From contig CANLVG010000014.1 of the NCBI GenBank assembly GCA_947494565.1, positions 1-64,000 of the forward strand: a DNA stretch of 64,000 nucleotides. Reading direction: 5' to 3'. This stretch comes from an uncultured Flavobacteriaceae bacterium (GTDB lineage Bacteria; Bacteroidota; Bacteroidia; Flavobacteriales; Flavobacteriaceae). Positions 8,368-20,370 of the stretch are shown in pieces. The position numbers and the translations under genes were made by a program. Each line of letters starts with the position of its first letter. The first letter of the stretch is position 1. The notes under the pieces were generated by a model. The model had not been told where the DNA came from. It ran no database searches and saw only the letters and a list, made by a program, of their open reading frames with translations.

Positions 8368-10122
8368 TTATCGATATCTCCAGCTCGTTACATCCGCCCC
8401 TTTAGGAGCGCTCTCCGCAATTCGTTTCATAATCTTGGGCACATACATACTATTGTATCGAAGTCGACTAATGGCATTGGGTTGATCTGGATCACCGTTC
8501 CAACAGTGTTCCGCTCTATCGCCATATAAGACCTCCCCTTCATAATATGGATCGGAGGTGCCCTCTAAAAAGTCTTCCATTAAATATACGGCGTTATTGA
8601 GGTAGTAGTTATCCATATCTCCGCAATAGATATGGATCTTTCCTTTGAGCTGCTCGCCGAGTTTATCCCAATCTCGTTCAAGAATATGTTTCAGGTCATA
8701 ATTCTCTTTCCAATATTCGGCCACCTGGTGGTCGATATCACCGGTCATTTTATCCCACAATCGAACAGGGTATCCATCTTCCCCCTGCGGAGAGTAGGTC
8801 GCTTCCCAGATATCCCACTGCTGGCCCGATCGACTTTTATCGCCCAAGACCAATTCCAAATGATTGCCTTGACGCAAGGTAGACTGTATTTGCCCTAAGT
8901 AATCACGATGCGAAGGGACCTCCAGTTTTTTATGGTCACTATCGTAATAATAGGCATTCTTGTCTTCATAGATATTAGTCAGACAATAGGCCCTAAAATC
9001 GATCGGGTCGGGGCACGCTGCGAAACAACCATTGTACTCTTTCGGGTACTTCACTTGAACGGCCAAGGCCTCCCAACCACCAGTGGAGCCCCCGTACAAA
9101 AATCGGGACCATCCTTCACCGATACCCCGGAACTCCTTTTCGATATAGGGAATCAGTTCGTGTGTAATTGCATCGCCATAGGGGCCTTGACTTGCTGAAT
9201 TCACGGCATATGAATCGTCATAATAGGGCGTAGGGTGTTGAATCTCGATAATCAACATTCGCGGGAAATCGGGTTCGTTCCAGCGTTTATAGAAATCATA
9301 GGCTTCTTGCTGTTGAATGACATTATACCCTTCCAAATCAAAGCGCGCGGAATACTCGGGTTTTAGGTCGGGGGCTGGAGGAGTAGTTCGAAATCCACTG
9401 AAATCGGATGGGAAATGCCCATGAAACACCATTACCGGATATTTTGCTTCAGGGTGTTCTTTGAAACCCTTTGGCAACAGCACATGTGCTCCGAGATAGA
9501 TATCCCGTCCCCAGAACTCGGATAGTTTTTCTGATTTGAGTTTGACATGCTTTATCCACTCAGTATCTTCCGGTTCTTCTATTTGCGGAATAACCTGATC
9601 GAGCACCACCTGTATTTCTTGACTTCCATTGACAAGATTTTCAATCCCGTTTTCGGTGACTCTAATTTTAAACGGCTTGCTGTAAAGGTTCCCCGGCGAC
9701 CGGTTCCATTGTTGTCCTTCGCCATTGTCCATGGGTAGTTTGACCGTATGTCCCGTAGCCAGGTCGAAGGTCTCATAAACATGCAATAATGCTTGTACTT
9801 GATATTCCCCTGGGGGTACTTCAGAAAGACTCGCGTAGGGGTAGCCGAAGATGGTACTATCGAAGGTTTTGACTTCATTGGCCTTCATGCCATCGACATT
9901 CATTCCATAAATCAATTGGCTCTTTAATCCATCATTGATTTGAAATCGAGGTTCAGCTGACTCGTTGTCGGACATCATCAAGAGCAATCGTCCATCTTTG
10001 GTCTCTGGACTTATCGCTTCGGTAAAAGAGACCTTAATTTGGATTGTACTTGCAGGTGTCGATTTTGATTGACAACCAAAGAGCAATAGCGCAGATAAAA
10101 GGAACAGCAGTACATGTTTCAT
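8368..10122 (-). CDS. Large esterase-like lipoprotein
   Basis: The frame is open from 10143, but the ATG at 10122 gives a clean lipoprotein signal (MKHVLLFLLSALLLFGC, lipobox LFGC, Cys17) and a 584-residue product. The N-terminal third is a beta-rich domain. The C-terminal two thirds form a PF00756-type alpha/beta hydrolase with VMVFHGHFPSDF and the nucleophile motif YGGSTGG. A His in AEHCWNGD near the end may complete the triad. It is probably anchored in the outer membrane and acts on an ester-bearing substrate. The two-domain layout is longer than a plain esterase and the N-terminal domain is unidentified. Confidence 0.8.
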   Translation of the reverse strand: MKHVLLFLLSALLLFGCQSKSTPASTIQIKVSFTEAISPETKDGRLLLMMSDNESAEPRFQINDGLKSQLIYGMNVDGMKANEVKTFDSTIFGYPYASLSEVPPGEYQVQALLHVYETFDLATGHTVKLPMDNGEGQQWNRSPGNLYSKPFKIRVTENGIENLVNGSQEIQVVLDQVIPQIEEPEDTEWIKHVKLKSEKLSEFWGRDIYLGAHVLLPKGFKEHPEAKYPVMVFHGHFPSDFSGFRTTPPAPDLKPEYSARFDLEGYNVIQQQEAYDFYKRWNEPDFPRMLIIEIQHPTPYYDDSYAVNSASQGPYGDAITHELIPYIEKEFRGIGEGWSRFLYGGSTGGWEALAVQVKYPKEYNGCFAACPDPIDFRAYCLTNIYEDKNAYYYDSDHKKLEVPSHRDYLGQIQSTLRQGNHLELVLGDKSRSGQQWDIWEATYSPQGEDGYPVRLWDKMTGDIDHQVAEYWKENYDLKHILERDWDKLGEQLKGKIHIYCGDMDNYYLNNAVYLMEDFLEGTSDPYYEGEVLYGDRAEHCWNGDPDQPNAISRLRYNSMYVPKIMKRIAESAPKGADVTSWRYR

Positions 10123-10229
10123 AGTGTTGGCGATTTCCCCCAAAAGATACTGCTTTTAAGTAAATCAAAAGACAAGAAAAGGCAGTTTTAAACGTTAAGA
10201 ACATAAGTTAACCTACAAAAACCGGCTCT

Positions 10230-10376
10230 ATGAAAAAGCTACTTTTTATCGCCGTACTATTCACGGCTATTATCGGAATGAGCAGTTGCGATTACGATGA
10301 CAGTAACGATATTGATGTACTTAAGCCCAATGACACTACCGAAACAAGTAGTATAAGTCAACATAAAGAGTTATGA
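10230..10376 (+). CDS. 48-residue lipoprotein
   Basis: The frame begins MKKLLFIAVLFTAIIGMSSC and then runs through an acidic, Asp/Ser/Thr-rich tail to a TGA at 10374. The first 20 residues form a lipoprotein signal with lipobox MSSC. Only 28 residues remain after lipidation, too few for a folded domain. It ends 2 bases before the convergent folD stop. The gene is supported by the signal peptide and exact packing. Function unknown. Confidence 0.65.
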   Translation: MKKLLFIAVLFTAIIGMSSCDYDDSNDIDVLKPNDTTETSSISQHKEL

Positions 10377-10378
10377 AA

Positions 10379-11263
10379 TCAGGACCGGCTTCTATGCCGT
10401 TCTCGTGCGAGCAAGGTATTTTTCAGTAACATGGCGATAGTCATAGGACCTACCCCCCCAGGGACCGGCGTAATATAAGAGGCCTTTTTACTGACATTCT
10501 CAAAATCTACATCACCTGTAATATAATACCCGCGAGGTCGACTTTCATCGGGGACTCTAGTGATCCCCACATCAATGACCACTGCATCGTCTTTGACCAT
10601 TTCGGCTTTCAGGAAATTAGGGACACCAAGCGCGGATATGACAATATCGGCCTGTGAAATGATCTGGGTAATATTCTTGGTATGACTATGGGTCAAGGTC
10701 ACGGTAGAATTACCTGGCCATCCTTTTCTTCCCATCAAAATACTCATTGGTCGGCCCACAATATGACTACGACCGATAACAACGGTATGCTTTCCTTTGG
10801 TATCTACCTTGTACCGCTCTAACAACTCTAAAATTCCGAACGGCGTGGCCGGTATGAACGTACTCATATCGAGTGCCATTTTACCAAAATTCGTAGGATG
10901 AAAACCGTCCACATCTTTATCGGGGTGAACGGCCATTATCACCTTTTGGGTATCTATTTGATCAGGTAAGGGCAATTGCACGATAAAACCGTCAATGTCA
11001 CTATCTTGATTCAGCTCTTCGATTTTCTTCAACAATTCTTGCTCTGAAGTCGTACTGGGCATTTGCACCAAGGTAGACTCGAAACCAATACGCTCACAAG
11101 ATCGAACCTTACTGCCAACATAGGTCAAACTTGCTCCGTCATTTCCTACGATTACGGCGGCGAGGTGAGGAACTTTTTCTCCGCGCTCTTTCATTTTCAC
11201 GACCTCCGCGGCGATTTCTTCCTTTATGTCATTCGACACTTTTTTCCCATCCAGTATTTGCAT
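10379..11263 (-). CDS. folD: Bifunctional methylene-THF dehydrogenase / methenyl-THF cyclohydrolase
   Basis: The 294-residue product has the FolD signatures: the catalytic YVGSK with Lys, QLPLPDQID, the Rossmann motif VIGRSHIVGRPMS, and PVPGGVGPMTIAMLL near the C-terminus. It interconverts 5,10-methylene-THF and 10-formyl-THF with NADP+ in the cytoplasm, supplying one-carbon units for purine and fMet synthesis. Length is normal for the family. It lies downstream of ffh on the same strand but is separated by a repeat-rich spacer. Confidence 0.97.
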   Translation of the reverse strand: MQILDGKKVSNDIKEEIAAEVVKMKERGEKVPHLAAVIVGNDGASLTYVGSKVRSCERIGFESTLVQMPSTTSEQELLKKIEELNQDSDIDGFIVQLPLPDQIDTQKVIMAVHPDKDVDGFHPTNFGKMALDMSTFIPATPFGILELLERYKVDTKGKHTVVIGRSHIVGRPMSILMGRKGWPGNSTVTLTHSHTKNITQIISQADIVISALGVPNFLKAEMVKDDAVVIDVGITRVPDESRPRGYYITGDVDFENVSKKASYITPVPGGVGPMTIAMLLKNTLLARERHRSRS

Positions 11264-11421
11264 TTTTTTTTGGTTTATGGTTTATGGCTTTTGGTTTCAG
11301 ATTTCAGGTTTCAGATTTCAGGTTTCAAGTTCATGGTCTCAATTCACTTTTCATTGCTAAGAATCACGACTACCGTTCACTGCGAACTGCTAACTGCTAA
11401 CTGCTAACTGCATCTATTCTT
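11264..11421. repeat. Degenerate short tandem repeats between ffh and folD
   Basis: Two blocks are visible. At 11293-11320 a 14-base unit (GGTTTCAGATTTCA) occurs twice and a partial third copy runs to 11329, preceded by GGTTTATGGTTTATGG-type sequence. At 11384-11411 a 7-base unit (TAACTGC, first copy GAACTGC) occurs four times. The spacing and lack of unique spacers exclude CRISPR. The origin is probably replication slippage. Confidence 0.8.
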
Positions 11422-12759
11422 TTACTTCATTCCTTTCATACCACCCATCATTTGCATCATCTTTTTACCCCTACTACCCTGCATCATTTTCATCATCTTG
11501 CTCATCTGATCGAATTGTTTGAGCAATTGATTGACCTCTTTGACATCGCGTCCGCTGCCTTTTGCAATGCGCTTTTTTCTATTTGCATCAAGTTTGGCGG
11601 GGGTTGCCCGCTCGTCGGGCGTCATCGAATAAATAATCGCTTCAATATGTTTAAAGGCATCGTCGTCAATATCCATACCCTTTAAGGCCTTGCCTGCACC
11701 AGGTATCATACCCATCAAATCTTTGATGTTCCCCATCTTCTTGATCTGTTGTATCTGAGAAAGAAAATCATCAAAGCCAAACTTATTTTTGGCTATCTTT
11801 TTTTGAATTTTGCGAGCTTCCTCTTCATCAAACTGGTCTTGCGCTCGTTCAACGAGTGAAATCACATCTCCCATTCCGAGAATCCGATCGGCCATACGGG
11901 AAGGGTGAAAAACGTCGATAGCTTCCATTTTCTCACCTGTACCAATGAACTTGATCGGTTTATCAACTACTGATTTAATGGAAATTGCCGCACCACCTCG
12001 TGTATCACCATCGAGTTTAGTCAGAATCACCCCATCAAAATTTAAGATGTCATTGAAGGCCTTAGCAGTGTTCACAGCATCTTGACCGGTCATGGAATCA
12101 ACCACAAAAAGGGTTTCCTGAGGTTCTATGGCTTTGTGGATGTTCGAAATTTCATCCATCATTTTCTCATCAACAGCCAGACGTCCGGCAGTATCGATAA
12201 TAATCACATTACATCCCAGAGACTTTCCATGGGCGATACCTGCCTTGGCAATAGCAACGGGATCTGAATTTTCACGATCGGAATAAACCTCAACCCCAAT
12301 CTGCTCGCCTACCACATGCAATTGATCAATCGCTGCAGGGCGGTATACATCACAAGCCACCAATAATGGTTTCTTCCTCTTTTTGGTCAATAAAAATTTG
12401 GCCAGCTTTCCAGAAAAAGTGGTCTTACCCGAGCCTTGAAGTCCTGACATAAGAATAACGGAAGGGTTGCCCGAAAGGTTAATGCCTTCGGTCTCCCCGC
12501 CCATCAATTCCGTCAATTCGTCTTTAACGATTTTGACCATCAATTGACCGGGCTGCAAAGTCGTCAAAACGTTTTGACCCAATGCTTTCTCTTTGACCCT
12601 ATTCGTAAACTCCTTGGCTATCTTAAAGTTTACATCGGCATCAAGAAGTGCACGACGTACTTCCTTAGTGGTCTCAGCAACATTTATCTCAGTGATCTGT
12701 CCATGTCCTTTTAGAACATGTAGGGCTTTATCGAGCTTCTCGCTTAAATTATCGAACAT
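11422..12759 (-). CDS. ffh: Signal recognition particle protein Ffh
   Basis: This 445-residue SRP54 protein has an N domain, a G domain with the P-loop GLQGSGKTTFSG near residue 105, DTAGR and TKLDGD motifs, and a Met-rich M domain ending MMKMMQGSRGKKMMQMMGG. It binds 4.5S RNA and nascent signal sequences and delivers ribosomes to FtsY and SecYEG at the inner membrane. The motif order is complete and the length is typical. Confidence 0.98.
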   Translation of the reverse strand: MFDNLSEKLDKALHVLKGHGQITEINVAETTKEVRRALLDADVNFKIAKEFTNRVKEKALGQNVLTTLQPGQLMVKIVKDELTELMGGETEGINLSGNPSVILMSGLQGSGKTTFSGKLAKFLLTKKRKKPLLVACDVYRPAAIDQLHVVGEQIGVEVYSDRENSDPVAIAKAGIAHGKSLGCNVIIIDTAGRLAVDEKMMDEISNIHKAIEPQETLFVVDSMTGQDAVNTAKAFNDILNFDGVILTKLDGDTRGGAAISIKSVVDKPIKFIGTGEKMEAIDVFHPSRMADRILGMGDVISLVERAQDQFDEEEARKIQKKIAKNKFGFDDFLSQIQQIKKMGNIKDLMGMIPGAGKALKGMDIDDDAFKHIEAIIYSMTPDERATPAKLDANRKKRIAKGSGRDVKEVNQLLKQFDQMSKMMKMMQGSRGKKMMQMMGGMKGMK

Positions 12760-12976: not shown

Positions 12977-14356
12977 CTATTCACAGATTTTTTCGATCAC
13001 TAGGTATTCATCTCCGCGCTTGATCTTGAATCGGTTCGGCGCACATTCTATAACCGTCCACTCACCAATATAATTGGCCAATGTCATACTCAAATCATTG
13101 AAAATCAATACCTCACCATCAATACTCCAATTTCCTTCATCTTCAACCTCACCATTCGCATTATACACATGGATGTTTCTATTTGAAAAATCGATATTCA
13201 AATCCTCAAGAAAAGTTGCCTCACTACCCACACTGGCTATGGCCCATCTACATGTTGAAATGGTATCTTCGATGAAAGCAGCATCACAAACTTCAGGTTC
13301 TTCTCCGCAAGTGGTCTTCAATACTATTTTATCACCATCACCGGCATAGAGCTTGATACGGTCTCCATCAATTTCATAAACAAACCATTCCAAACTGAAT
13401 TCTACCAAGAACTCAAACTCCAATTTCAACAACACTCTATAGTCAGAAACTCTTGTGTTCCATTCTCCATTCAAGATATTACCTTCTCTATCCTTAACGA
13501 CTACCGATCCATCTTCATTGAAAGTCATCAAGTAATTCTCATATTGGTCAGAAGTATATTGATTATCTCGTTTCACTTCTTTGACCAACCAAGGACACTC
13601 GGCCAATAGGTTATCCAATCGCTCTTTGGTAAAATCGTCATCATTATGGTCATCGTCATCGTCTTCATCGCAAGCTTCCTTAGCACGCTCGATGGTTTGC
13701 CTTAACTCCTCAATACTACCAACGGATACTTTCTCACCATTATAGAATTCAAAGGATACCGGAAACTGAAGACTGATGATATCTTCCTCATCCAAGCCGG
13801 CGAAAAACCGTCTCATTTCCTTGTCACTTTGAACTTCCACAGTACCTGTTTGTTGAAGTTCAAGGTCAAACGTAAAGAAGGTCACCGGGTAAATGACATC
13901 GATACACTCGATATCGTCATCTGAACCGCCTTCGATACATTTCGAGGCATGCTCACGTAACTCAGCCAAATTCTCGACAGTGATTTCTGAATAATCGGCC
14001 ATCGTAATGGTTATCGGAAATATGATATCCAAAATATCATCATCCTCGTCAAGAGCGTCAAAAATCTCTTCGATCAAATGCAGATCTTCTTTAGAGTTGA
14101 TGGTGATATCAAGTCCGTTTACCGAAACGGTATATGGAAAACGAATATCAAAACAGCTGGCCCCGTCAACGATATTATCGTAGGAACCGTCATTTGACAC
14201 CATATTTGTCATAAGATTGGCCGCTGCGGAATTTGCGGTCATTGTTTCTTCTTCACTCGTTTCAATGATTGGGGGATCTTCCGTTTGACACGAGGTAAAA
14301 CTTAGTGCAACCACAAGTAGGCTTGCGAACATTGCAGATTTAAAATACTTTTTCAT
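12977..14356 (-). CDS. Acidic lipoprotein built of four short repeats plus two lipocalin-like modules
   Basis: The 459-residue product has a lipoprotein signal (lipobox FTSC, Cys23). Residues 68-229 hold four related units of about 35-40 residues, each with a DIxFPxT-like strand and an EEL-type helix: FDIRFPYT (69-76), LDIIFPIT (109-116), IDVIYPVT (152-159) and ISLQFPVS (194-201), with acidic linkers such as DEDDD. An Asp-rich linker (230-241) leads to two similar modules (about 250-350 and 357-458) that each start with a C-x-W-like segment and end KTTC or EKIC, resembling lipocalin-like beta-barrels. I do not recognise a named family for the repeats. It is divergent from an ECF sigma gene, which suggests a role at the cell surface in that system. 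Confidence 0.75.
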   Translation of the reverse strand: MKKYFKSAMFASLLVVALSFTSCQTEDPPIIETSEEETMTANSAAANLMTNMVSNDGSYDNIVDGASCFDIRFPYTVSVNGLDITINSKEDLHLIEEIFDALDEDDDILDIIFPITITMADYSEITVENLAELREHASKCIEGGSDDDIECIDVIYPVTFFTFDLELQQTGTVEVQSDKEMRRFFAGLDEEDIISLQFPVSFEFYNGEKVSVGSIEELRQTIERAKEACDEDDDDDHNDDDFTKERLDNLLAECPWLVKEVKRDNQYTSDQYENYLMTFNEDGSVVVKDREGNILNGEWNTRVSDYRVLLKLEFEFLVEFSLEWFVYEIDGDRIKLYAGDGDKIVLKTTCGEEPEVCDAAFIEDTISTCRWAIASVGSEATFLEDLNIDFSNRNIHVYNANGEVEDEGNWSIDGEVLIFNDLSMTLANYIGEWTVIECAPNRFKIKRGDEYLVIEKICE

Positions 14357-14562
14357 AACGATTTGGATTTATTTGTTCGTTCGAGTCTAAAACAATCGAT
14401 TTTAAAATCACCCTACTATCGATTTTTGTTTTTTTTAAAATATCTTTGAGTTTCAAACGTTTTAATTTGGCCCGTAAGTGCTTATTTATCAACGCTTGGC
14501 AAACATTAAGCTGGAATATAATTTCTGGTTAAAAAAAATCCTAAACACCTAAAACCAACCTT

Positions 14563-15075
14563 TTGAATAGCGAAGCCCAAAACAATGTTTGTGAAGAATC
14601 GGTCTTTAGCACCATCTTCAAGACTACTTCAAGAACGGTTTTCAACTATATATATTATAAATTCGGTAATGAAGAAAAAGCCCATGATGCTGTACAAGAG
14701 GCATTTGTGAAATTGTGGGAGAATTGTGCCAAGGTACCCCCGAAAAAGGCAAAGTCTTTTGTATATACCGTTGCCAACAATCTTTACCTGAACGTTATCA
14801 AGGCTGAAAAGGTGCGTTTGAAATACGCAGATAAAACGCTCAAAAGCACAAACGAGACCCCTGAATTTTTGATGGAAGAAGATGAATTCAGAGGCAAATT
14901 GGAAAACGCCTTGAACGGTTTACCCGAAAATCAACGAACGACTTTCCTACTCAATAGAATAGATGGGAAAAAGTATAAGGAAATCGCCGAAATGGAAGGA
15001 GTCAGTGTGAAAGCTATCGAAAAACGTATGCATTTGGCGCTGAAAAGCTTACGGGAACAAATAGATGGAATCTGA
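14563..15075 (+). CDS. ECF-type RNA polymerase sigma factor
   Basis: This 170-residue sigma-70 protein has region 2 (FNYIYYKFGNEEKAHDAVQEAFVKLWEN) and region 4 (LPENQRTTFLLNRIDGKKYKEIAEMEGVSVKAIEKR). The only start in this frame is TTG at 14563; a stop lies in frame 21 bases upstream and the first internal Met is far inside region 2-4. The weak start suggests low basal expression. It precedes a FecR anti-sigma gene and a TonB-dependent receptor, the normal order of cell-surface signalling operons. Confidence 0.9.
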   Translation: MNSEAQNNVCEESVFSTIFKTTSRTVFNYIYYKFGNEEKAHDAVQEAFVKLWENCAKVPPKKAKSFVYTVANNLYLNVIKAEKVRLKYADKTLKSTNETPEFLMEEDEFRGKLENALNGLPENQRTTFLLNRIDGKKYKEIAEMEGVSVKAIEKRMHLALKSLREQIDGI

Positions 15076-15195
15076 AATTTCAAGACCAAGGGAAGTCTTT
15101 CAGTGGACCTTACCTACTCTAGTGTTAAAATGTAAATTCCTAAAAGTAGGGTTTTTAGCCCTTAACGTGTTATATAAGTATAAAGTCTAGAAATC

Positions 15196-16107
15196 ATGCA
15201 AGAAAATTACTTGGCAAAATGGTTGAACAATGAGCTCTCCGGAGCAGAATTGGAGGAATTCAAGCAATCTGAAGCATATGACTCCTACAGGAGAATCCTT
15301 GAGGCTTCCAATAGGCTGGAAGCCCCTGAATTCAATGCTGATGATACCCTTGAAGCCATTAACAACAGACGTACTTTGCAGGAAAACAAGGTGGTGCAAC
15401 TCCATCCGTTCAAGAAGTTCTTAAAAGTAGCTGCCGTAGCTGCCTTTTTGGTTGTTGGCGTTTCTTTTTATTTGAGCACCCTAGACGAAAGAGTGTCGAC
15501 ACAGTATGCTGAAAATAAAGAGGTCATGCTGCCGGATAATTCGAAGGTCATCTTAAATGCGGATTCCGAATTATCTTTCAGCGAAAAAGACTGGAACGAA
15601 AAGCGTAACGTCGAACTTCATGGTGAGGCCTTTTTCAAGGTGGCCAAAGGCAAACGTTTTACCGTCGCCACGGATGCTGGCACAGTGGCGGTCTTAGGCA
15701 CAGAATTCAATGTGGAGCAACGTGAGGGCTTTTTTGAAGTGAGCTGTTTCGAAGGTCTAGTAAGTGTGACCTTTCAGGGCGCGGAAACCAAGTTACCCGC
15801 CGGTAGTTCCTTTATGGTGATTGACGGGCAAGTTATCGCGTCGAAAACATCCGATGGAAATGAGCCATCTTGGATAAATGCTGAAAGTACTTTTAAGAGT
15901 ATCCCCTTAAAGTACGTACTTCAAGAATTTGAAAGGCAACATAACCTTCAAGTCGAAACCGATCAAATAGACGTCAATCAATTATACACGGGTTCTTTTA
16001 GCAATACAGATTTAAATTTAGCGTTGAAGAGTATAAGCATGCCTTCGCAAATAAAGTTTAAATTAGAGGGCGATAAAGTGCTCTTCTATGCCAAAAAAGG
16101 GGAATAA
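15196..16107 (+). CDS. FecR-family anti-sigma factor
   Basis: The 303-residue protein has a short cytoplasmic N-terminal part that should hold the sigma factor, one membrane helix (about residues 77-94, VAAVAAFLVVGVSFYL) and a periplasmic FecR domain with the ELHGEAFFKVAKGK and VLGTEFNV motifs. A C-terminal DUF4974/STN-like domain (SIPLKYVLQEFERQ onwards) follows. It would pass the receptor's signal to the ECF factor. The receptor gene overlaps its 3' end by 20 bases, so translation is probably coupled. Confidence 0.92.
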   Translation: MQENYLAKWLNNELSGAELEEFKQSEAYDSYRRILEASNRLEAPEFNADDTLEAINNRRTLQENKVVQLHPFKKFLKVAAVAAFLVVGVSFYLSTLDERVSTQYAENKEVMLPDNSKVILNADSELSFSEKDWNEKRNVELHGEAFFKVAKGKRFTVATDAGTVAVLGTEFNVEQREGFFEVSCFEGLVSVTFQGAETKLPAGSSFMVIDGQVIASKTSDGNEPSWINAESTFKSIPLKYVLQEFERQHNLQVETDQIDVNQLYTGSFSNTDLNLALKSISMPSQIKFKLEGDKVLFYAKKGE

Positions 16108-18640
16108 ACTTGTTGTTCTTTGTAGTCTACTTTTTTTATGCGTGCTCACTCATGCAAGGGCTCAGGAAACTACAAAGGTCACATCTTATTTAATCACATA
16201 CCTCAAAGAGCTTGAAACTACCTTTGACGTCAAATTCTCTTATGTTGACGACGATGTTCGGACGGTTGAGATTACAGCCTTTGAGGCCCCCAACCTTCAG
16301 GACATCTTAACTTATATCGAGAATAAGACCCAAATCAAGATTCGAAAAATCAGTGACCGCTACTATGCACTTACCAAAAGTACGACGGTTGATATCTGTG
16401 CCGTTGTTCTAGATAATTTCAAACAGAATACCGTCACCGGTGCTACCGTACAAGTACTGGGAACGGACATTGCCATAATTACGGACTTAGATGGGGCCTT
16501 CACCCTGCAGAACGTCCCTAGAAATGCAAAGTTGCAGATCAAGCACGTCGGTTTTAAAACCTTGTTTGTCGATGTAGAGGAGTTGCTTGACTCAAGCCCA
16601 TGTAAAACCCTACTGCTCGCACAGTTCTATCAACAATTGGAAGAAGTTGTAGTATATGAGTTTTTGACCAAAGGCCTGGTCAAGCAACTCGATGCAAGTA
16701 TTGAATTGAATACAGACGAATTCGGCATCTTACCCGGATTGAGCGAACCGGATATCTTGCAGACCGTACAGGCCCTGCCCGGGATAAAAAGTGTTGACGA
16801 AACCGTTTCGGACATCAATATCAGAGGGGGAAGCAACGATCAAAACCTCATTCTTTGGGACGGCATTAAAATGTATCAATCCGGACACTTTTTCGGCTTG
16901 ATTTCCGCTTTTAACCCATATTTGACCGGAAAGGTAACCCTTATCAAAAATGGCACCAGCTCCGTGTACGGGGATGGTGTGAGTGGTGTTATCGATATGC
17001 GCACCAAAGACAAAATCGAAACCGACTTTTATGGCGGCGCAGGATTCAACCTCATTAGTGGTGACTTTTACGGGCAACTATCCCTTAACGATAAACTAGC
17101 CGTTCAATTTTCGGCACGGCGCTCCATGACCGATTTCTTGAACACTCCAACTTTCGATACTTTTTTCAATAGAGCCTTTCAGAGCAATAAAGTTGTAGGG
17201 GAAACCACGGAAATCATGAATATCGAACGGGACGACCGTTTCTATTTTTACGATTTTACAGCAAAGGTACTTTACGACCTCAATGAAGACCATAAGTTCA
17301 GGATGAGTTTCATCAACATCAACAACCTCTTGGATTATGAGGAACGTCAACCTGAACAGGATATTTGGACCACAAGTTCGTTAGACCAGACCAACCTTTC
17401 CTTTGGAGGCACCTTGGACAGTAAATGGACAACTAGAATGTCAACCACCTTGAATGCCTACTACACCCGATATAACCTTAACGCGCTCAACGTATCTTCA
17501 AGAGGCCCGCAAGAAATAGAACAGAACAATGAGGTCATTGAAACGTCGGTCAAGTTGGGCCTGAACTATACATTGAATGACCATCTGCAATGGCTTAGTG
17601 GATATCAACTCAATCAGACCGGTATCACGAACATTACCTTGGTCAACCAACCCGCTTTTACAAGCGACATTATAGGTATTGTAAACACCAACGCATTGTT
17701 TTCTGAATTGGAATTCAAATCACCAAACAACAAACTGTTTGTCAGGGGTGGCTTACGGCTCAACCACTTAGAGAACCCGGGTGATTTCGAAGAATTCATT
17801 CTTGAACCCCGCTTCAGTTTAAATTACGCGATTACACCAAAGCTAAAAGCGATCGTTCTCGGAGAGTTCAAAAGTCAAGCGACCAATCAAATCGTAGACT
17901 TAGAACAAAACTTTCTGGGCATCGAAAAACGAAGGTGGACCGTTTCCGATGGAGAGAATTTACCCATCACCCGAAGTAAACAGGGTTCATTTGGGTTGAA
18001 TTACGATACTCGAAATCTCTATATCGGGCTCGAAGGTTTTTATAAGGAGGTCAACGATATCAGTACGGCCACCCAAGGATTTCAGAACCAAAATCAATTC
18101 AACGGGGAAATCGGCACATACGATGTGAAGGGGGTGGAGTTTTTGGTGAACGGGAAAACCGATACGTATAGTATTTGGGCCAGTTATACCTACAATATGA
18201 ACACTTATACATTCGAGACCATCGATCCCCCGAATTTTCCGAACAACCTAGACATACGTCATGCTGCAACCTTGGCCGGGACGGTAACAATGAACTCATT
18301 TCGATTTGGATTGGGGTTTAACTATCGATCGGGCAGGCCTTTTACCGAACCTATAGTCAACACTCCTGTCAACAACGGTATATTTCCCGCGGAAATTAGC
18401 TACAACAGCCCCAACAGTAGCAGATTACCGGAATACATCCGGGCCGACGCTTCGGTCATCTACGATTTTGACATCGGACAATCGGCCAAAGCTTCTATCG
18501 GTGCATCCGTACTTAATGTTACCAACCGGAAAAATGTGTTGAACATTTTCTATCGCCTAGATGAGAACGACCTTTTAGAAACGGTTGAAAGCACTTCGTT
18601 GGGTATCACCCCTAATTTCAGCTTTCGACTGAAGTTTTAG
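16088..18640 (+). CDS. TonB-dependent receptor with STN signalling domain
   Basis: This 850-residue outer membrane receptor starts with a signal peptide (ending ARAQE), then an STN domain (about 30-95), a CarboxypepD_reg-like domain (about 100-180; ATVQVLGTDIAIITDLDGAF), a plug (about 205-315; INIRGGSNDQ, SVYGDGVSGVIDMR) and a 22-strand barrel ending FRLKF. The STN domain is typical of receptors that signal to FecR and an ECF sigma factor. The ligand is unknown. It overlaps the FecR gene by 20 bases and converges with blh by 4 bases. Confidence 0.9.
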   Translation: MPKKGNKLVVLCSLLFLCVLTHARAQETTKVTSYLITYLKELETTFDVKFSYVDDDVRTVEITAFEAPNLQDILTYIENKTQIKIRKISDRYYALTKSTTVDICAVVLDNFKQNTVTGATVQVLGTDIAIITDLDGAFTLQNVPRNAKLQIKHVGFKTLFVDVEELLDSSPCKTLLLAQFYQQLEEVVVYEFLTKGLVKQLDASIELNTDEFGILPGLSEPDILQTVQALPGIKSVDETVSDINIRGGSNDQNLILWDGIKMYQSGHFFGLISAFNPYLTGKVTLIKNGTSSVYGDGVSGVIDMRTKDKIETDFYGGAGFNLISGDFYGQLSLNDKLAVQFSARRSMTDFLNTPTFDTFFNRAFQSNKVVGETTEIMNIERDDRFYFYDFTAKVLYDLNEDHKFRMSFININNLLDYEERQPEQDIWTTSSLDQTNLSFGGTLDSKWTTRMSTTLNAYYTRYNLNALNVSSRGPQEIEQNNEVIETSVKLGLNYTLNDHLQWLSGYQLNQTGITNITLVNQPAFTSDIIGIVNTNALFSELEFKSPNNKLFVRGGLRLNHLENPGDFEEFILEPRFSLNYAITPKLKAIVLGEFKSQATNQIVDLEQNFLGIEKRRWTVSDGENLPITRSKQGSFGLNYDTRNLYIGLEGFYKEVNDISTATQGFQNQNQFNGEIGTYDVKGVEFLVNGKTDTYSIWASYTYNMNTYTFETIDPPNFPNNLDIRHAATLAGTVTMNSFRFGLGFNYRSGRPFTEPIVNTPVNNGIFPAEISYNSPNSSRLPEYIRADASVIYDFDIGQSAKASIGASVLNVTNRKNVLNIFYRLDENDLLETVESTSLGITPNFSFRLKF

Positions 18641-19542
18641 GTATTTTTTATTCGATTAATTACCAAAACATGGGGAAAGGTGATCGCCGCTAAAAAGGAA
18701 AAGAAAAAAGAAAGCGAGGTCTCGAAATTTGAACGAAACACGAAAAGCAAAAATAAAATACCTATTATAGAAATCACCCAATAAGGGAGCGAGGCCTTCA
18801 CATAACCTAAAACGGTCTTTTTTGAGAAATCCCCATAGAGATAATAAATCTGGTCTACCAAGGAAGGTATGGAGTGCCATATGACAAAGTATATTGCAAA
18901 TGACCATAACAACGAGGCGGTGCTAAATAGAATAAAGAAAACCACAATGTGAAAAGTCTCTCGGATGAAACTAGTTCTTAAATCCTTATCACGTACCATT
19001 AAAAAAACATAAAGAACGCTCATCGAGATACCGGAACCAAGACTTGCGTAGTAATAATCGCGTTCATCAATCTTGATTTTGGTAATGGTATGGATGATTT
19101 CCGTGACCGTTTCTGCATGTAGGTAAAATAGAAGGCAAAGGATGAAAAATCCGTAGGTAAAGAACAAAATATTTCCCCAAAAAGTGGGTTCTTTTATTCG
19201 TACGCCAAAGTGTTGTTCACCAAAATGATAGGCACTGAATATCACGAAAGATATCAAGGCTATCGCAGGAACATAGTAAAACAGTAGTGCGCTTCCCAAA
19301 ACAAAAAGTATGTAGTAGGTCAATGTCCGCACGTAAGATATTCTAGTTGAGCGACTCGAATTCGAATGCTGGATCAACTTAAGATCGTTGGCCCCATGAA
19401 TTATTCCTAAGGATAAAATCAGAACATAGGCGAATATGTTTTCTATAAATTCTTCGAACTGTACCGCCAACCAGAGCGAAAAAAAGGTAGTAACTACCAT
19501 AAAATTGCTCATATCGATGATTATCTGACCCTTATTTTCCAT
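18637..19542 (-). CDS. blh: Brp/Blh-family beta-carotene 15,15'-dioxygenase
   Basis: This polytopic membrane oxygenase has the family's conserved histidine sites: IIHGANDL, YHFGEQHFG, IWHSIPSL and FPHVLV. It cleaves beta-carotene into two retinal molecules, the chromophore of the proteorhodopsin encoded next to it on the other strand. The frame is open from 19575, but the ATG at 19542 (MENKGQII) gives 301 residues and leaves room for a promoter, so I prefer it. The carotenoid genes that supply beta-carotene are not in the window. Confidence 0.93.
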   Translation of the reverse strand: MENKGQIIIDMSNFMVVTTFFSLWLAVQFEEFIENIFAYVLILSLGIIHGANDLKLIQHSNSSRSTRISYVRTLTYYILFVLGSALLFYYVPAIALISFVIFSAYHFGEQHFGVRIKEPTFWGNILFFTYGFFILCLLFYLHAETVTEIIHTITKIKIDERDYYYASLGSGISMSVLYVFLMVRDKDLRTSFIRETFHIVVFFILFSTASLLWSFAIYFVIWHSIPSLVDQIYYLYGDFSKKTVLGYVKASLPYWVISIIGILFLLFVFRSNFETSLSFFFSFLAAITFPHVLVINRIKNT

Positions 19543-19562
19543 TTTGTTTAAAATTTTAACAA

Positions 19563-19584
19563 AAACATTAAACAATTAATGTTT
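19563..19584. promoter_or_regulatory. Inverted repeat between blh and proteorhodopsin
   Basis: AAACATTAA-acaa-TTAATGTTT is a perfect 9-base inverted repeat with a 4-base centre in the 90-base divergent spacer. A further AACATT copy follows at 19585-19590. It lies upstream of both genes and could bind a regulator of both, or form a hairpin in a leader. No known binding consensus was matched. Confidence 0.45.
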
Positions 19585-19632
19585 AACATTTATTAAATTT
19601 ACTTAAACAAAACTAATTAAATCGTAATTGCT

Positions 19633-20370
19633 ATGACTAATTTATTAAGTACACTTCCTTTAGCCACGAAAATGATGCCTGACGATTATGTCGGTTTTAC
19701 CTTTTTCGTGGGCTGTATGGCCATGATGGCCGCTTCCGCTTTTTTCTTTTTGTCAATGAACAGTTTTGACAAAAAATGGAGAACCTCCATTCTTGTATCG
19801 GGTCTTATCACCTTTATCGCCGCAGTGCACTATTGGTACATGCGTGATTACTGGGCAACGGTCGGAGAATCGCCCACCTTCTTTAGATATGTTGATTGGG
19901 TACTCACGGTTCCGCTGATGTGTGTCGAATTCTTCCTTATTTTAAAGGTAGCAGGGGCCAAGAAATCGCTTATGTGGCGTCTTATCATTCTTTCCGTTAT
20001 CATGTTGGTGACCGGCTATATCGGCGAAACGCTAAACCGGGACAATGCTGCACTTTGGGGCGCAATCTCTGGAGCGGCCTATTTCGTAATCGTCTACGAT
20101 ATTTGGCTTGGGCAGGCGAAGAAGTTGGCCGTAGAAGCCGGCGGCGCGGTATTATCCGCTCACAAAATGCTCTGCTGGTTTGTTTTAGTTGGTTGGGCAA
20201 TCTACCCTATCGGTTACATGGCTGGAACACCTGGTTGGTACGAAGGGATATTCGGCGGACTCAACCTAGATGTTGTTTACAATATCGGAGATGCAATTAA
20301 TAAAATCGGTTTCGGATTGGTTGTCTACAATTTAGCCGTGATAGCGACTAGCAAAAAAGAAATGGCGTAG
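19633..20370 (+). CDS. Proteorhodopsin, predicted green-tuned proton pump
   Basis: This 245-residue seven-helix rhodopsin lines up by eye with SAR86 green proteorhodopsin. The proton-pump triad is Asp88-Thr92-Glu99 (motif RYVDWVLTVPLMCVE), the counter-ion His is His66 and the retinal Lys is Lys224 (AINKIGFG). The colour-tuning site (GPR Leu105) is Met96, which points to green absorption. Gly143 (AALWGAIS) aligns with the bulky GPR Phe152, the site where a small residue opens a carotenoid-binding window in xanthorhodopsin-like proteins. It pumps protons out of the cell in light. A terminator follows at 20412. Confidence 0.96.
   Translation: MTNLLSTLPLATKMMPDDYVGFTFFVGCMAMMAASAFFFLSMNSFDKKWRTSILVSGLITFIAAVHYWYMRDYWATVGESPTFFRYVDWVLTVPLMCVEFFLILKVAGAKKSLMWRLIILSVIMLVTGYIGETLNRDNAALWGAISGAAYFVIVYDIWLGQAKKLAVEAGGAVLSAHKMLCWFVLVGWAIYPIGYMAGTPGWYEGIFGGLNLDVVYNIGDAINKIGFGLVVYNLAVIATSKKEMA

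Follow-up and report, generated by a model that had tools for sequence, protein, structure and literature searches.

What does a lipoprotein built of repeats do beside a cell-surface signalling set? The question is raised by a locus in a stretch of 64,000 nucleotides from an uncultured Flavobacteriaceae bacterium (assembly GCA_947494565.1, contig CANLVG010000014.1, positions 1 to 64,000; hereafter, the window), in which the gene of a repeat lipoprotein is divergent from genes for an extracytoplasmic function (ECF) sigma factor, a FecR-type anti-sigma factor and a TonB-dependent receptor. An earlier note on this DNA had offered three alternatives for the lipoprotein, namely a target of the sigma factor, a ligand-binding partner or a surface structural protein. 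Our answer, held with moderate confidence, is that the locus encodes a cell-surface signalling unit that is complete in itself and has wiring similar to that of the Has system of Serratia, with the lipoprotein as its docking or ligand-holding partner; on the evidence, the lipoprotein appears to take part in sensing rather than to stand beside the set by accident.

The lipoprotein gene, recognized from its sequence and its relatives, encodes 459 aa (12977..14356, minus strand, as are all features of this gene given below), and the remaining three genes, assigned with Pfam, lie on the plus strand. The sigma factor (170 aa, TTG start; 14563..15075) matches Sigma70_r2 and r4_2, both above cut-off, as are the FecR (76.6 bits) and FecR_C (33.6 bits) matches of the anti-sigma factor (303 aa; 15196..16107). 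The receptor (850 aa; 16088..18640) carries an N-terminal signalling-type domain, visible as a FecR_C-like match at 39-91 that is sub-threshold (20.8 bits against a cut-off of 24.4); among 8 other receptors scanned, 3 gave a FecR_C match (E up to 0.01), which is above cut-off in L212 only (L numbers denote individual loci). The standard sigma, FecR and STN-receptor set described in the earlier note thus stands as a FecI/FecR/receptor unit, whereas the window receptor reaches no more than a sub-threshold score for a true STN domain.

In the lipoprotein, four beta-beta-alpha repeats form two Cys-bounded domains, and two lipocalin-like barrels follow, in agreement with the original observation of four repeats and two lipocalin-like modules beside a signalling set. 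Repeat domain 1 spans residues 68-141 (half-repeats R1 and R2; 13934..14155) and repeat domain 2 residues 151-229 (R3 and R4; 13670..13906); an Asp-rich linker, apparent from the sequence (13631..13672), leads to module 1 (13301..13633) and module 2 (12980..13294), both with a lipocalin-like beta-barrel fold. One face of the repeats bears invariant Pro and Cys residues. The repeats had been said to belong to no recognized family, and indeed no Pfam model matches them in the window protein, DUF7767 (PF24962) included; a far relative with about six tandem half-repeats (L199) is the only one of 40 family members above the DUF7767 cut-off (35.6 versus 27 bits, over a short best stretch). No SusD family was found among the Pfam matches of the window proteins up to E 1, and because SusD domains are absent, the lipoprotein is not classed as SusD. 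The profile for lipocalin modules, iterated on the same 60 family members that it was used to count, finds none in 11, one in 35, two in 3, three in 10 and four in 1, so that the repeats are the constant part of the family and the modules an optional, variable one; the 11 repeats-only open frames, L175 and L188 among them, suggest that the repeats, rather than the lipocalin modules, are the part linked to signalling. Neither the Asp-rich linker nor strong acidity extends across the wider family, and the earlier description of the lipoprotein as acidic does not hold family-wide. In two loci outside the main group (L195:5926-6798 and L197:5716-6684), two repeat domains follow an N-terminal region which, on visual inspection, resembles PepSY.

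Behind a signal peptide of 22 residues (residues 1-22; 14291..14356, from the sequence), the mature lipoprotein starts at Cys23 followed by QTED, an acidic start resembling the lipoprotein export signal defined in PMC5080379. At least two acidic residues at +2 to +6 are present in 62/65 aligned orthologues and 42/55 parsed members of the wider family, and display of the lipoprotein on the cell surface is accordingly predicted as probable. Immediately 5′ of the start codon, AATCCAAATCGTT (14357-14369) is strongly conserved in most of L031-L110, and its conservation, judged by eye, exceeds that of the rest of the leader.

To what extent lipoprotein and signalling set belong together can be read from their distribution. 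The orthologous set comprises the best 80 of at least 561 relatives in a scan of GTDB genome contigs. The sigma gene is divergent from and adjacent to the lipoprotein gene in 79 of these loci, and in the eightieth (L057) a second lipoprotein copy sits between sigma and the first copy; a family lipoprotein is therefore directly beside the sigma gene in 80/80. The two L057 copies form a tandem duplication (L057:8037-9791 and 9956-11752) with an ECF-type site at both. Within the DNA stretch examined per locus, FecR is present in 77/80, the receptor in 76/80 and ffh in 77/80, the lipoprotein gene lying between sigma and ffh. Since these loci are orthologues with a common folD-ffh neighbourhood, a broader test was run with a repeat profile against 392 genomes belonging to the phylum, of which it matched 44, 39 in the family of the window and 5 in other families. 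This yielded 60 further loci (57 profile rows minus the window, G014 and three rows that hit an already counted protein again, plus 8 regions), six of which (L150, L151, L153, L154, L157 and L158) look orthologous to the window locus by sigma score, L150 being probably the L101 contig, to which it is equal in length. An ECF sigma factor lies within the fetched stretch in 59/60, and in 51/60 both sigma and FecR are divergent from the lipoprotein, with sigma 1-2 kb away from it in three divergent loci (L172, L207 and L208). In L150 sigma is divergent and FecR falls outside the range; the L197 genes for lipoprotein, sigma, FecR and receptor all point the same way; and L190-L195 contain another kind of sigma, with no match to FecR. 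The co-occurrence suggested for checking in the earlier note is thus borne out, and the independent occurrence that it named as a refutation is confined to a single locus whose fetched stretch contains no ECF sigma (L189, 1/60).

The link to the repeats follows one class of FecR, that of 290-320 aa. Among the 150 FecR matches listed from 59 related genomes, repeats were found within 5 kb in 34/45 of this class, compared with 1/19 at 321-345 aa, 0/81 above 345 aa and 0/5 below 290 aa; the long class is presumably the SusCD-linked kind. Among the 11 short FecRs without repeats, L211 opens at the edge of its contig with a promoter site of the lipoprotein type, L213 and L221 are truncated by a contig end, L215 has no sigma match in the stretch, L218 has a divergent 745-aa HELGH protein, and L214, L216 and L220 have other neighbours. 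Upstream of the FecR-receptor pair of L215 lie three near-identical 128-aa open reading frames and one of 102 aa (L215:5841-8380).

The regulatory DNA provides the evidence that bears most directly on the lipoprotein as a sigma target. The intergenic region between lipoprotein and sigma contains two conserved blocks. One is a candidate ECF promoter of the lipoprotein gene, P_lipo (GTAGGGT-N15-TGTTTTA; 14388..14416, minus strand), the sole exact occurrence of this motif in the 5.39 Mb genome, which was delineated by motif and conservation, as was P_fecR (GTAGGGT-N15-TGTTATA; 15146..15174, plus strand), the candidate ECF promoter ahead of fecR and the receptor gene. In all 80 orthologous loci the P_lipo motif is kept at 12 or more of 14 positions, in most of them roughly 60 nt upstream of the start codon. 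The P_fecR motif is kept at 11 or more of 14 positions in 73/75, at -48 to -51, and the two loci missed carry the site at -141 and -137. In two more loci, about 7.5 kb of other genes, in opposite-strand blocks (L053:1740-9383 and L101:1948-9377), separate sigma from fecR, and the site is kept at -49/-48, bringing the total to 77/77. As a control, 4000 pieces of 105 bp were drawn at random from these loci, with the true sites left in, and 37 scored 11 or more. A further element, TATCTTTG (14441..14448, plus strand), reads toward the sigma gene; identified by conservation and a published consensus, it has the form TAnnTTTG, the consensus that PMC9723704 gives for the -7 element of the primary sigma factor (sigma-A type) in flavobacteria. 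Such an element faces sigma in 77/80 orthologous loci versus 10/80 shuffled, and no ECF-type site toward sigma was found in any of the 80 within the 140 bp scanned from the lipoprotein start.

The same code recurs in relaxed form ([TC]AGG[GA]-N16-TGT[TC]nn[AT]) in the 51 other divergent loci, where it precedes the lipoprotein in 36 and fecR in 45. It is confined to a spacer of 16, spacers of 10-15 and 17-22 yielding at most 1 each. Where both sites are present (34 loci), the class of the first half agrees throughout (4 CAGG pairs and 30 TAGG pairs); L202 has two identical 28-base sites and L156 a nearly identical pair, and the second half TGTCTTA is common to both sites in L168, L169, L174 and L206, and not in L170. 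The lipoprotein therefore looks like a target of the sigma factor, an alternative for which the promoter-like sites in 80/80 loci are direct sequence evidence. The promoter evidence is strong, and we infer from it transcription from the candidate sites; a wiring in which sigma acts on the lipoprotein gene and on fecR-receptor, and the housekeeping polymerase on the sigma gene, is very probable.

Sites of this kind also occur elsewhere. In the genome of the window, the motif has 1 exact and 7 one-mismatch occurrences, 2 of the eight in this locus, against 1 for a backward-motif control. One site lies 48 nt upstream of a fasciclin lipoprotein gene (L114) and another upstream of a non-coding element (L117); L113 lies 64 nt upstream of a 418-aa frame and has the TGT half broken, and L112, L115 and L116 are inside a gene or not upstream of one. 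Five related genomes gave 66 matches with at most one mismatch versus 26 in the backward control, so that single one-mismatch matches carry little weight. The 17 exact matches in these genomes comprise 4 P_lipo sites, 5 instances of one recurring, probably coding site, and 8 others, of which four lie 24-58 nt before a lipoprotein-like gene (L223, L227, L228 and L237) and four before the non-coding element (L231, L232, L234 and L235). The three one-mismatch sites inspected (L245, L248 and L249) lie 49-67 nt before lipoprotein-like genes. Pfam confirmed fasciclin domains in L114, L248 and L227, and found no match at all in L237, L228 and L245; similar sites precede fasciclin lipoproteins in 3 of the 6 genomes scanned.

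The non-coding element is a candidate small RNA of 105-150 nt, located in the genome of the window outside the window itself (G000:C10:22097-22276, minus strand) by motif and covariance model, with copies in L117, L231, L232, L234, L235 and L252-L272. Its 3′ end is an intrinsic-terminator-like GC-rich hairpin with a T-run, in which pairing is kept despite sequence changes, and most copies share the core GTTTAGGTTGGTTTTTTGATTT. Shuffle z-scores range from -2.0 to -5.0, and comparison of 5 loci with Rfam gave 3 matches with E of at most 1, none of which reached the gathering score. A covariance model built without the promoter matches 21/149 genomes of the family, and 17 of these 21 matches (15/19 of those not used in model building) have an ECF-type site within 120 nt upstream, compared with 63 of about 20,000 random windows; L260, L268, L270 and L271 are the matches without one. 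The lipoprotein family is found in 98/149 sampled genomes of the bacterial family (E <= 1e-20), and all 21 genomes with the small RNA carry the repeats (P = 6.6e-5, uncorrected for relatedness). The upstream sites and the repeats in all 21 genomes together make the small RNA a likely sigma target, and in this clade the sigma factor probably also drives fasciclin-type lipoproteins. The conserved core pairs with the sigma leader weakly better than shuffled sequences do. These remote lipoprotein sites and the small RNA, like the paired promoter-like sites and the housekeeping-type element facing sigma, go beyond the earlier note.

A second ECF architecture contains the same repeats. In L190-L194, the repeat lipoprotein precedes the ECF sigma gene, which is followed by a protein of 466-538 aa (L190, L191, L193 and L194, and also L192), with one gene between lipoprotein and sigma in L193. 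Four of these downstream proteins were scanned, and a C-terminal outer-membrane-protein barrel match, below cut-off, was found in 3 and none in 1. The layout resembles that of an ECF sigma factor with a barrel-fused anti-sigma factor (M0N98_03760/61; in B. fragilis, EcfO). An anti-sigma factor of this build is described in PMC9308784 and connected there with envelope stress; the window unit differs in using a separate FecR and receptor. L190-L194 share a common upstream motif, GCAACCTTTTT...ACTATTA.

How the unit compares with characterized systems bears on how it may work. In Serratia marcescens, HasI drives hasS and hasR and not itself, and a hemophore serves the receptor (PMC9249621). The locus resembles Has (HasI-HasS-HasR-HasA) in that the anti-sigma gene has its own sigma-type promoter site (77/77 loci) and the sigma gene is apparently not autoregulated, to judge from the -7 element in 77/80 and the ECF site in 0/80 within 140 bp. 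HasI reportedly also controls hasA. Unlike in Has, the partner here is lipid-anchored and probably surface-displayed, consists of repeats and lipocalin-like modules and is encoded divergently from sigma, and the site is of the TAGGGT type, not TTTACGGGTTT. With carriage of a ligand by the lipoprotein only putative, the unit is not classed as a Has system. The ECF sigma, FecR anti-sigma and TonB-dependent receptor with an N-terminal signalling-type domain equally recall FecI-FecR-FecA of Escherichia coli, where, according to PMC9249621, the sigma gene is read by the housekeeping polymerase, and fecI and fecR have one promoter in common and are not autoregulated. Housekeeping-type reading of the sigma gene is predicted here too, whereas fecR has its own sigma-type site and a dedicated lipoprotein is present. 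The gene set of lipoprotein, receptor, FecR and sigma is shared with the FI cluster/PUSIII of Flavobacterium johnsoniae, which has a lipoprotein, TonB-dependent transporter, FecR and sigma factor at consecutive locus numbers (Fjoh_3856-3859); its lipoprotein differs, being described as homologous to polygalacturonase and responding to phosphate depletion (PMC8115612). In SusCD, a surface lipoprotein works with a TonB-dependent receptor (same source), and the same pairing is proposed here. BtuB/BtuG is another such surface lipoprotein-receptor pair. The window unit differs from SusC/SusD in that no SusD family is among its Pfam matches, and the repeats accompany 0/81 FecRs of the long class.

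In the mechanism that we propose, the sigma gene would be transcribed by the housekeeping polymerase, and FecR would hold the sigma factor inactive. Ligand on the outer-membrane receptor would cause its periplasmic domain to act on FecR and thereby release sigma, as expected from the FecR family. Free sigma would then transcribe the two divergent units, lipoprotein and fecR-receptor, from the paired candidate promoters, so that output, receptor and the sigma factor's own brake would increase together. The repeat domain would most likely dock on the receptor, and the optional lipocalin-like modules would hold the ligand, making the lipoprotein a tethered counterpart of the HasA hemophore. We infer both the repeat-receptor contact and the release of sigma in this unit; that the repeats are a receptor partner rather than a mere output is an even call in our estimate, and for the lipocalin modules a ligand-binding role is possible but somewhat more doubtful.

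Several observations weigh against this reading. A recognizable site is missing before the lipoprotein in 15/51 and before fecR in 6/51 of the other divergent loci, and 13/36 lipoprotein sites lie more than 140 nt upstream of the start chosen. In L176-L185 (10 loci, genus g43), a housekeeping-type TAnnTTTG stands at -21 of the lipoprotein and the ECF motif, present in 9/10, is far upstream at -148 to -221, which indicates that strict sigma dependence of the lipoprotein is not universal. Toward the sigma gene, the 140-bp scan falls short of the gene where the gap is longer. In three units with the same FecR class, an acidic, Asp-rich, metallopeptidase-like HEFGH lipoprotein replaces the repeat lipoprotein in the divergent position (L212:2895-3929, L217:2870-3928 and L219:1-1098, the last with a Peptidase_Mx1 match slightly under cut-off), so the repeats are not indispensable. 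Finally, the correlation of repeat and receptor tree distances (r 0.89 over 53 units, reached by 0/500 permutations), which counts in favour of the reading, is confounded by common descent.

Could the lipoprotein instead be output only, a surface coat, adhesion or protective protein that is induced by sigma, makes no contact with the receptor and merely travels as a target with its regulator? The sites before other lipoprotein-like genes, including fasciclin-domain ones in 3/6 genomes, mean that sigma may control a surface programme, and the substitution of a metallopeptidase-like lipoprotein fits an exchangeable output. We nevertheless consider this unlikely: the remote sites are scattered and vary by genome, whereas the site of the repeat lipoprotein is fixed beside the unit; adjacency is kept even where the lipoprotein has a housekeeping-type element (L176-L185); the repeats are constant and the modules variable; and, as the same repeats are common to two different outer-membrane-linked sigma systems, signal input would be an easier reading than output. 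Less probable again is that the lipoprotein is itself the signal, its surface delivery or folding being monitored by the receptor as a gauge of outer-membrane or lipoprotein-export stress. The small RNA with a terminator downstream of a sigma-type site, likened in this scenario to those of sigma-E, would fit such a monitor, as would the second class, with repeats and sigma before a large protein with a sub-cut-off C-terminal barrel match, given that a barrel-built anti-sigma factor has been linked to envelope stress (PMC9308784). On the other hand, any action of the RNA on envelope genes is putative, its pairing with the sigma leader only weakly exceeds that of shuffled sequences, and fec- and Has-type receptor units are nutrient sensors. 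That the lipoprotein belongs with the ffh-folD housekeeping genes, or was placed by chance, is hardly credible; its position between sigma and ffh in the orthologous group speaks for this reading, but L021, L022, L023, L029 and L030, which keep sigma and FecR with no ffh in the approximately 4 kb examined, contradict it.

Beyond the unit, a beta-carotene dioxygenase gene (Blh-type), the next gene past the receptor on the opposite strand, and a proteorhodopsin-like gene adjoin the receptor gene (18637-20370); blh is found in 16/80 and rhodopsin in 15/80 orthologous loci, some of which are incomplete. Short tandem repeats of 7 bases occur in the folD-ffh gap beside folD (11293-11327 and 11379-11411).

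By mechanism, the unit is of the FecI/FecR/receptor kind; what is new, as far as our searches show, is the partner lipoprotein family, the promoter code and the linked RNA. The combination of lipoprotein and signalling set, suspected earlier to be undescribed, did not turn up in our searches of open-access papers. More tentatively, the repeat domain may be a general signal input for barrel-coupled sigma factors in Bacteroidota, serving at least two ECF architectures; in the Maribacter-like clade, repeats and TonB receptor would form the sensor of a sigma factor that also drives the fasciclin lipoproteins and the conserved small RNA. Such a response of the envelope or surface would be like that of sigma-E but gated by a receptor and its surface lipoprotein. 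Most of what is understood of FecR/TonB-receptor surface signalling concerns iron uptake in Proteobacteria. The rule [TC]AGGR-N16-TGTY provides a starting point for work on flavobacterial ECF promoters of the FecR type, and the lipoprotein partner, the promoter code and the candidate RNA make the ligand, the contact and the regulon directly testable in culturable strains.

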